From NCBI RefSeq assembly GCF_014191545.1, contig NZ_AP023361.1, positions 248,001 through 312,000 of the forward strand: a stretch of 64,000 nt of DNA. Reading direction: 5' to 3'. Positions 8,710 to 10,317 of the stretch are shown piece after piece (the stretch's first letter is position 1; each line of letters opens with the position of its first letter). A program made the translations under genes and the position numbers. A model generated the notes under the pieces. That model saw only the letters and a program-made list of their open reading frames with translations, was not told the DNA's origin and did not search any database. This DNA is from Terrihabitans soli. GTDB taxonomy: Bacteria; Pseudomonadota; Alphaproteobacteria; Rhizobiales; Methylopilaceae.

Positions 8710-8735
8710 TGAACCTTCCGGTGCCGCGCGGCGAC
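8710..8735 (+). promoter_or_regulatory. ECF-type promoter element, small secreted protein 1
   Basis: TGAAC at 8710-8714 is followed after 17 bases by CGAC at 8732-8735. The same arrangement occurs at 9139 and 9563, and TGAAC-N17-CGTT occurs before rpoH2. It lies about 60 bp before the start codon. Confidence 0.5.
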
Positions 8736-8793: not shown

Positions 8794-9048
8794 ATGTTCC
8801 GTAAAGCAATTCTCGGCCTCTCGGCCGCTGTCATCCTCGGTGCTGCCATCGCCCCGTCCGCTGCGCTCGCTCATGGCGGCAAAGGCAAGGGCAATGGCGG
8901 CCATCACCATCACAAGAAGTGGCATCACTTCGAAAAGTGGAGCAGCGGTTACGGCTATGGTTACGGCGGCAGCTGCTGGACCAAGGCCAAGGTGTGGTCC
9001 GACTATTACGGCGACTTCGTCTGGAAGAAGGTCAATATCTGCTACTGA
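8794..9048 (+). CDS. Tiny secreted Gly/His/Tyr-rich protein, array member 1
   Basis: An 84-residue protein: a signal peptide (MFRKAILGLSAAVILGAAIA, cleaved near ALA), a His/Gly/Lys-rich linker, a GYGYGYGGS stretch and a C-terminal module with two cysteines (C-x21-C) around KVWSDYYGDFVWKKV. The same end module recurs in the next two genes and in a shorter form in the fourth. The ATG at 8794 follows GAAGGA by seven bases; a GTG at 8779 in frame is less likely. An intrinsic terminator follows. No function is known; the paired cysteines suggest a disulfide-closed beta hairpin in the periplasm or outside the cell. Confidence 0.8.
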   Translation: MFRKAILGLSAAVILGAAIAPSAALAHGGKGKGNGGHHHHKKWHHFEKWSSGYGYGYGGSCWTKAKVWSDYYGDFVWKKVNICY

Positions 9049-9069
9049 TCCGACGAGATCGAAGCTTCA

Positions 9070-9098
9070 AAGCCGGCCCCGCAAGGGCCGGCTTTTTT
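9070..9098 (+). terminator. Terminator after array member 1
   Basis: AAGCCGGCCC pairs perfectly with GGGCCGGCTT around a five-base loop, followed by a T run. Confidence 0.92.
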
Positions 9099-9138
9099 CA
9101 TGCGCCCGGCCTGGATGTCCGTACCCGAACGAATCTTT

Positions 9139-9164
9139 TGAACCTGTCTTCGAGGGGCCGCGAC
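9139..9164 (+). promoter_or_regulatory. ECF-type promoter element, small secreted protein 2
   Basis: TGAAC at 9139-9143, 17 bases, CGAC at 9161-9164. The block CGCGACCAATGATCATCGG (9159-9177) matches 17 of 19 bases with 9583-9601 upstream of array member 3. Confidence 0.5.
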
Positions 9165-9228
9165 CAATGATCATCGGGACCGCGACCGGCACTTCGGTCG
9201 GCCCATCAGACAAGAGGAAGACTGAACC

Positions 9229-9489
9229 ATGATCCGCAAAACCCTTCTCGGCCTCGCCGCTGCGTCCACGCTCGCGATCGCCGCTCTCGCTCCGTCCACG
9301 GCTTCGGCCGGCGGACCGAACTTCTCGATCCACCTCGGCGGCTTCGGCGGCGGCTATGGCTACGGCCCGTATTACGGGGCTGGCTATTACGGCGATTACT
9401 ACGGCGGCGGCTGCTACTGGAAGGACGTCAAGGTGTGGTCGAACAAGTGGCAGAAGTTCGTCTGGAAGACGAAGAAGATCTGCTACTAA
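9229..9489 (+). CDS. Tiny secreted Gly/Tyr-rich protein, array member 2
   Basis: An 86-residue protein with a signal peptide (MIRKTLLGLAAASTLAIAAL, cleaved near ASA). A glycine/tyrosine-rich centre (GGGYGYGPYYGAGYYGDYYG) follows, then the C-terminal two-cysteine module (C-x22-C) containing KVWSNKWQKFVWKTKK. It is clearly paralogous to the neighbours on both sides in signal peptide and end module, while the middle differs. AAGAGGAAG lies about nine bases before the ATG. The Gly/Tyr centre resembles low-complexity surface or matrix proteins. The function is unknown. Confidence 0.82.
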   Translation: MIRKTLLGLAAASTLAIAALAPSTASAGGPNFSIHLGGFGGGYGYGPYYGAGYYGDYYGGGCYWKDVKVWSNKWQKFVWKTKKICY

Positions 9490-9524
9490 GATCGACGGGC
9501 GCGAACCCTCAGCGCCGCACAAGG

Positions 9525-9551
9525 AGCCGGTCCGAAAGGGCCGGCTTTTTT
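9525..9551 (+). terminator. Terminator after array member 2
   Basis: AGCCGGTCC pairs with GGGCCGGCT (one G-T) around GAAA, followed by a T run. Confidence 0.9.
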
Positions 9552-9562
9552 GCGTCTTGAAA

Positions 9563-9588
9563 TGAACATTTGTGCGATCGCACGCGAC
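9563..9588 (+). promoter_or_regulatory. ECF-type promoter element, small secreted protein 3
   Basis: TGAAC at 9563-9567, 17 bases, CGAC at 9585-9588, about 50 bp before the start codon. Surrounding bases match those before members 1 and 2, including TCAGCGGCCGCA shared with 8742-8753. Confidence 0.5.
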
Positions 9589-9640
9589 CAAAGATCAGCG
9601 GCCGCATCCACTCTCGCGGCCGGAAATTGGGAGAAAGATG

Positions 9641-9901
9641 ATGATCCGCAAAACCGTGCTCGGCGCGACCGCGCTTGCCGTTCTCGTGACCGGCCTCGCA
9701 TCCGCCCCGGCGCTCGCCGGCGGTGGCGGCAAGGACTACGCCGCCCGTCAGGCCAAGAAGTGGGAGCACCTCCACCTCAACGCCTACCGGAACGGCAATT
9801 CCGGCATTTTCTCGTATGACGAGGAATGCCGCACGATCCGCGTCAAGGCGTGGGACGATTATTACGGCTATGTCTGGACGAAGAAGGTCGTCTGCGGCTG
9901 A
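9641..9901 (+). CDS. Tiny secreted protein, array member 3
   Basis: An 86-residue protein with a signal peptide (MIRKTVLGATALAVLVTGLA, cleaved near ALA) closely similar to that of member 2. The middle is less Gly/Tyr-rich and more charged (DYAARQAKKWEHLHLNAY). The C-terminal two-cysteine module (C-x21-C) contains RVKAWDDYYGYVWTKKV. Two adjacent ATGs (9638, 9641) follow GGGAG; 9641 is chosen because it gives the MIRK start of the paralogue and seven-base spacing. A perfect 11 bp terminator stem follows. The function is unknown. Confidence 0.8.
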   Translation: MIRKTVLGATALAVLVTGLASAPALAGGGGKDYAARQAKKWEHLHLNAYRNGNSGIFSYDEECRTIRVKAWDDYYGYVWTKKVVCG

Positions 9902-9922
9902 GCCGCCAAACTCATAGCCATT

Positions 9923-9954
9923 AAAAAGCCGGCCCCGAACGGAGCCGGCTTTTT
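9923..9954 (+). terminator. Terminator after array member 3
   Basis: AAAAAGCCGGC and GCCGGCTTTTT are exact reverse complements separated by ten bases. Confidence 0.92.
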
Positions 9955-10059
9955 CATGTTTGGGAAAGGAGAAGGCGGTTTAGGTTTGCCCATTGCGCGG
10001 GAACCTGATTGCCTCCTCAGGCCTGTTGAGAAGAAGGCCCCTCCGCCAGGAAGACCGAA

Positions 10060-10317
10060 ATGTTTCGTCTGTCCGCTTTTTGTCTCTCCGCCATCCTCAT
10101 GACCGTGGCGTTCATGCCGGGCAAAGCGGCGGCGCAGTATTCCAATCGGAGCGGCGGCTCTTTCGGCGGCGGAGGCGGCTATCATTCCCAGGAGGCGCCC
10201 CGCCAACTCCAGCGGCCCGGCTATCGCCCCGGCCTGAGGCCCGGCGGGCCGCAATGCTACACGAAGCGGACCAAGGGCCCGAACGGGCAATGGCAATCCG
10301 AGACGGTCTGCGAATAA
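10060..10317 (+). CDS. Tiny secreted protein, array member 4 (divergent)
   Basis: An 85-residue protein with a signal peptide (MFRLSAFCLSAILMTVAFMP, cleaved near AAA), a Gly/Ser-rich stretch (GGSFGGGGGYHSQ), a Pro/Arg-rich linker and a shortened C-terminal two-cysteine module (C-x17-C) with KRTKGPNGQWQSETV. The end module keeps the aromatic and basic pattern of members 1-3 but is four residues shorter. AGGAAG lies seven to eight bases before the ATG. A GGAAC at 10000 lies in the position of the TGAAC of the other members, without a clean minus-10 match. A weak hairpin with a broken T run follows at 10349-10367. Confidence 0.75.
   Translation: MFRLSAFCLSAILMTVAFMPGKAAAQYSNRSGGSFGGGGGYHSQEAPRQLQRPGYRPGLRPGGPQCYTKRTKGPNGQWQSETVCE

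Follow-up and report, generated by a model that had tools for sequence, protein, structure and literature searches.

What are the four very small genes that lie in a row beside gloB in Terrihabitans soli, and what do they have in common besides their size? Exported proteins that are small and of low complexity count among the most poorly understood components of alphaproteobacterial genomes. In this work the window is the whole stretch of DNA that was analysed (64,000 nucleotides) and the genes are numbered 1 to 4 in the order in which they are read. To judge from their sequences and surroundings, the array most likely represents an ECF envelope-stress regulon that has expanded locally.

A row of small exported proteins

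The first-pass annotation described a row of four tiny genes with export signals, and this description was borne out with its coordinates correct (Table 1). All four genes are on the + strand and are divergent from gloB. Their export signals are of the n/h/c type and end in ALA, ASA, ALA or AAA, as judged by eye and with a simple hydrophobicity rule. The mature part of each protein contains exactly two cysteines with one residue beyond the second, and the residues between the cysteines number 21, 22, 21, and 17 in genes 1, 2, 3, and 4, respectively. The terminators claimed after the first three genes, on which their reading as independent units was based, were recovered as a stem plus T-run in each case and no shuffled sequence was as good; a terminator was looked for downstream of gene 4 and was not found. 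No Sigma-70 consensus promoters were found in the array region.

Table 1. Coordinates of the array features in the window and of the ECF sigma gene in the same genome.
Feature	Coordinates	Strand	Details
Gene 1 ECF-type promoter element	8710..8735	+	TGAAC-N17-CGAC, then TGAA; near match
Gene 1	8794..9048	+	84 aa exported protein, His/Gly/Tyr-rich middle
Gene 1 module, Cys61-Cys83	8974..9042	+	array-free profile, shuffle test
Gene 1 intrinsic terminator stem-loop	9069..9095	+	-21.7 kcal/mol, z -3.6
Gene 2 ECF-type promoter element	9139..9167	+	exact TGAAC-N17-CGACCAA
Gene 2	9229..9489	+	86 aa exported protein, Gly/Tyr-rich middle
Gene 2 module, Cys62-Cys85	9412..9483	+	AlphaFold2 hairpin, array-free profile, shuffle test
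Gene 2 intrinsic terminator stem-loop	9521..9550	+	-21.9 kcal/mol, z -4.8
Gene 3 ECF-type promoter element	9563..9591	+	exact TGAAC-N17-CGACCAA
Gene 3	9641..9901	+	86 aa exported protein, charged middle; alternative start 9638 gives 87 aa
Gene 3 module, Cys63-Cys85	9827..9895	+	array-free profile, shuffle test
Gene 3 intrinsic terminator stem-loop	9923..9954	+	-20.4 kcal/mol, z -4.8
Gene 4	10060..10317	+	85 aa exported protein, Gly/Pro-rich middle
Gene 4 short two-Cys segment, Cys66-Cys84	10255..10311	+	profile, shuffle test
ECF sigma gene	C1:1623763-1624329 (own genome)		putative anti-sigma gene next

A C-terminal module with two invariant cysteines

It had been proposed that all four proteins share a two-cysteine end module. 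The module profile was built from 50 modules outside the array, which avoids circularity. When all ORFs of the window were searched with this profile, genes 1-3 scored 42, 40, and 32 bits (E = 4e-12, 2e-11, and 6e-9), gene 4 scored 15.5 bits (E = 8e-4), and the best frame outside the array scored 8.0 bits. The residues between the cysteines were also shuffled in 3000 trials per gene and the real score was reached in 0/3000; for gene 4 the best of the 3000 shuffles scored 16.5 compared to 18.7 for the real segment. Because its profile and shuffle scores are weak, gene 4 appears to be a marginal member of the module family, and the proposal of a common module stands for genes 1-3.

When 53 modules were aligned, no column was invariant except those of the two cysteines; the modules carry a mean net charge of +4.9 and a mean of 4.7 aromatic residues (F/W/Y). 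Beyond the signal region, all of the relatives that were checked (60/60) contain exactly two cysteines, and in 45 of these 60 the second cysteine is followed by one final residue. The earlier suggestion that a constant end module is joined to a varying middle holds among the eight paralogs of the genus, with mean pairwise identities of 0.53 for the signal, 0.25 for the middle, and 0.51 for the module. The middles of the relatives are His/Gly-rich, Tyr/Arg-rich, or a hydrophobic Gly-zipper-like stretch. The first-pass annotation likened the module to a shared anchor that carries different cargo. Since the last type of middle occurs in several relatives, it is the middle that may be the anchor and the hairpin that may be the working head of the protein.

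Structure prediction, which had been suggested at the outset, was carried out with AlphaFold2 on an alignment of short sequences and gave a beta-hairpin with strands 10-19 and 24-33, a four-residue turn and a pLDDT of about 90. Cys10 and Cys33 face each other across the paired ends of the hairpin in this model, and a cross-strand disulfide between them is therefore predicted. The full-length model is confident in the module part only. Comparison of the module model with PDB folds gave no significant match, and single-disulfide hairpins are structurally uninformative in such a comparison; no solved structure was found among the relatives by sequence search.

Searches of Pfam-A, NCBIfam, and PHROGs returned no family above the curated cut-off (in PHROGs, no match at E 0.1), so that membership of a named family is rejected and the initial impression that no named family applies is upheld for these three libraries. 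A weak likeness to NCBIfam NF040554 (mini_HHHH, HHHH-motif protein) was seen in the signal-peptide region and the His run, but the scores were 14.9 and 9.9 bits vs a cut-off of 40 and the matched part excludes the cysteine module. A literature search did not find a paper on this module.

The search of Hyphomicrobiales genomes that had been proposed as a check was done with a profile of the module only, which matched 47/397 genomes and 17/141 genera, often several times per genome; the module is not confined to one strain, and the idea of a strain-specific curiosity is rejected. Dispersed paralogs reach up to 6-7 per genome. When 385 genomes of the class and 299 of the phylum were added, the convincing module matches all fell within Hyphomicrobiales. 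A spread beyond this order is unsupported, as one of the two extra matches has a stop in its frame and the other is partial, over 18 positions. No plasmid-borne relatives were found, and scans of genome contigs gave only two relatives, both metagenome-assembled.

The T. soli genome has a fifth module gene that adjoins recG and the ECF sigma operon described below. The congeners G001 and G003 have one copy instead of four at the gloB - methyltransferase - metW - metX site, and the recG site of G003 holds two. With one copy at the gloB site in the congeners, it is most simply supposed that a single gene expanded in the lineage of the window. The array had been described as separating gloB and a methyltransferase gene that are usually adjacent; the two are indeed direct neighbours in some relatives, in divergent orientation, but only in 3/15 other genomes of the family. 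In G001 the single hairpin gene at this site is separated from the methyltransferase gene by a sensor histidine kinase-like gene (L028 6532-8067). Tandem copies are also found elsewhere; L041, for example, has a run of three, and in G003 two copies are accompanied by a decayed module. This third, decayed copy (L009 1355-1570, G003 C23; NCVLRKVRVRTPIRASDWVWTTKKICD) is without its own gene start and lies directly behind the tandem pair.

An ECF-type promoter element and its probable sigma factor

Upstream of genes 1-3 is an ECF-type promoter element that the first-pass annotation missed. The element, [T/C]GAAC-N17-CGAC, is located 78-94 bases before the start of genes 1-3, of the recG-locus paralog and of all the congeneric copies, one of which has the CGAAC variant. 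It was found by pattern search and the upstream regions of homologous genes are non-independent. Gene 4 lacks the element, with only GGAAC-N17-CCTG at 10000.

The T. soli genome contains 8 exact TGAAC-N17-CGACCAA sites, and behind each of them is a correctly oriented ORF. Three of these ORFs are module genes (gene 2, gene 3, and the recG-locus copy) and one is the ECF sigma gene; the others encode an exported protein that ends in CWKEKRKKKIVTVCMED, a response-regulator protein, a CPBP intramembrane protease, and a small membrane protein that is followed by a DUF3828 protein. Allowing up to one mismatch gave 26 sites vs 5 when the pattern was reversed. Gene 1 is among the near matches, as is an exported protein that ends in CWKEKHKGQVVLICEE. 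In 14 other genomes of the family there were 26 exact sites vs 1 control site. An exported protein gene with a C-terminal cysteine pair lies behind 14 of the 34 exact sites in the 15 family genomes vs 0.9% of control positions, and the corresponding binomial p of 2e-20 is too small as some of the sites are related by descent. The consensus of 16 aligned sites is TGAACC-N16-CGACCAA. A CA dinucleotide, outside the query positions, occurs in 14 of these 16 about ten bases after CGAC begins and is likely to be the transcription start. The literature search did not find an ECF promoter of the TGAAC-N17-CGAC type.

A sister class of proteins is also found behind the element (L102 and L110 at C1:574032 and 576909 in T. 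soli, L156, L157, L158, and L166). These are exported proteins that have a hydrophobic segment rich in Gly and Ala and, at the C-terminus, a short cysteine pair (CWxEx..VTVC) with about 12 residues separating the cysteines; the two that were tested had no Pfam match. Additionally, a Gly-rich exported protein with several cysteines (L113, T. soli C1:877061, - strand) has a one-mismatch element upstream.

The ECF sigma factor is a member of NCBIfam NF009168 (PRK12515), with 329 bits vs a cut-off of 236; the library gives this subfamily neither a functional name nor a regulon. The following gene has weak NCBIfam matches and no domain named by Pfam, and it looks like a membrane anti-sigma factor. 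The element is found upstream of the ECF gene, with the anti-sigma gene next in line, across four Hyphomicrobiales families, and its presence before the sigma factor's own gene is as expected of autoregulation. In the family of the window all 8 of 8 ECF orthologs have the element, at -42 to -54. Orthologs fetched from three further families (f35, f20, and f28) have it in 22 of 26 cases, at -51 to -65 and mostly as CGAAC in f35, and the f35 hairpin genes of the CYVTRRVLTPYGFRWRTVNVCY type have a matching CGAACC-N16-CGAC upstream. From these occurrences we infer that this ECF sigma factor reads the element. The T/CGAAC half resembles several ECF promoters, and another sigma factor could therefore read it.

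In the family of the window 7 genomes share the ECF gene and the module (each present in 8), for a Fisher p of 0.003 that ignores kinship. The exceptions are G010, with a module gene and no ECF ortholog, and G002, with the ECF gene and a short-hairpin protein in place of the long module. The module gene adjoins the ECF operon in T. soli, G003, G011, G014, and G016. In eight other families the element was found before 0 of about 28 hairpin genes, and no ECF ortholog was found at E 1e-50 in the f18, f41, and f50 genomes. Since many hairpin genes in other parts of the order are without the element, the ECF link is not universal for the protein family.

Autoregulated ECF regulons of this general type are known. 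Sinorhizobium meliloti RpoE1/3/4/6 belong to ECF26, with the promoter consensus -35 GGAATA / -10 GT (PMC6180224), and Bradyrhizobium EcfF-OsrA belongs to ECF16, with the EcfF promoter GTAAC-N14-15-CG (PMC3420878). The system described here resembles both in that an autoregulated sigma operon is followed by the anti-sigma gene, the promoter is bipartite, and the regulon is small and includes proteins of unknown function. It differs in its element, [T/C]GAACC-N16-CGAC, and in having exported hairpin proteins as the commonest gene class at its sites. Membership of the ECF26 regulon was rejected on comparing the 16 aligned sites with GGAATA/GT. The hairpin protein family lies outside every named family tested.

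Proposed function and alternatives

We propose that genes 1-3 arose by local tandem expansion and belong to a Hyphomicrobiales family, so far without a name, of small Sec-exported proteins. The mature protein would consist of a disordered low-complexity segment that ends in a beta-hairpin, which is basic and aromatic and would be closed by a single disulfide. Envelope stress, the presumed signal of the ECF system, would free the sigma factor from its membrane anti-sigma factor. The sigma factor would then transcribe its own operon, the hairpin genes and the genes of other membrane or secreted proteins from TGAAC-N17-CGAC promoters, and the hairpin proteins would be exported and then oxidised in the periplasm. 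The basic hairpin would bind the anionic envelope (LPS or peptidoglycan), and the Gly/His/Tyr-rich part may coat or patch it. Gene 4 would be a neighbour that has diverged or is unrelated, and it would lie outside the regulon. This explanation as a whole, with the expansion, the autoregulated ECF regulon and the envelope-binding role, seems to us somewhat probable. A coat or patch protein bound to the envelope through a basic hairpin on an anionic surface is the most likely job for these proteins, although this last step is by itself less likely than not.

Part of this evidence may be read differently. The gene copies are homologous and common descent may account for the conservation of their upstream regions, so that the proteins might be constitutive structural proteins of the envelope whose upstream element was only carried along when the gene was duplicated and is no ECF promoter. 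This is quite improbable, as the element is also found upstream of non-homologous genes, above all the ECF sigma gene in several families, and is strongly enriched vs the reversed pattern. The hairpin proteins could instead take part in the signalling loop by reporting on periplasmic folding in an oxidation-dependent manner and feeding back on the anti-sigma factor. Such a role would explain the position of hairpin genes beside the sigma operon in several genomes and agrees with the two invariant cysteines, but many hairpin genes are located elsewhere and those of other families are without the element, which makes it very improbable.

Arenicin-type antimicrobial peptides are single-disulfide beta-hairpins of about 20 residues that are basic and aromatic. 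The likeness is a resemblance only, as the hairpin here is the C-terminal module of a longer exported bacterial protein whose genes appear to have a stress-sigma-type promoter element. Export as antimicrobial peptides against competitors, with a basic aromatic single-disulfide hairpin as in animal peptides, would suit the charge and aromatic content of the module, the predicted hairpin, and the fast divergence of the middle with tandem duplication. We consider it unlikely, since no obvious immunity, transporter or processing gene lies beside the array, the module is at the extreme C-terminus without a leader-peptide boundary, the genes have their promoter element in common with an anti-sigma-controlled sigma factor and with membrane proteins, and the paralogs are dispersed. 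A role as periplasmic binders of copper, nickel or zinc, in which His-rich middles chelate the metal and the hairpin only stabilises the protein, is also improbable: the His clusters of gene 1 and many relatives are in its favour, but gene 2, gene 3, and many relatives keep the module and have few His clusters or none, conservation lies in the hairpin rather than in the His run, and no metal-transport gene was recognised behind the promoter element.

The module unites small exported proteins of low complexity across many families of one order, and the element and sigma factor appear to control them in at least two families. A set of 'hypothetical proteins' thereby becomes a defined, testable regulon, with a predicted output for an ECF subfamily present in 117/397 sampled Hyphomicrobiales genomes. 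A broader proposal would be a conserved Hyphomicrobiales ECF regulon whose commonest output is modular secreted disulfide-hairpin proteins, long (17-26 residues) and short (about 12 residues), which are tandem-expanded and form or repair an envelope coat, and in which the oxidation state of the hairpin may in turn act on the anti-sigma factor; in this breadth it is doubtful.

Two further observations concern regulation. The element is also located upstream of a stretch without a convincing ORF in T. soli (L135, C1:3105244, + strand), G001 (L171), and G003 (L178). The stretch contains a C-rich segment that is conserved (GCCGCTGTCCCCTCCCCGGC) and resembles a terminator at its end, and it is a candidate ECF-controlled small RNA; L171 compared with Rfam ar14 scored below threshold (35 bits, gathering 58.8). 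Finally, TGTGAC...GTCAC-like palindromes were seen by eye upstream of hairpin genes in families without the ECF element (L011, L032, and L039), which suggests a different regulator for these genes.
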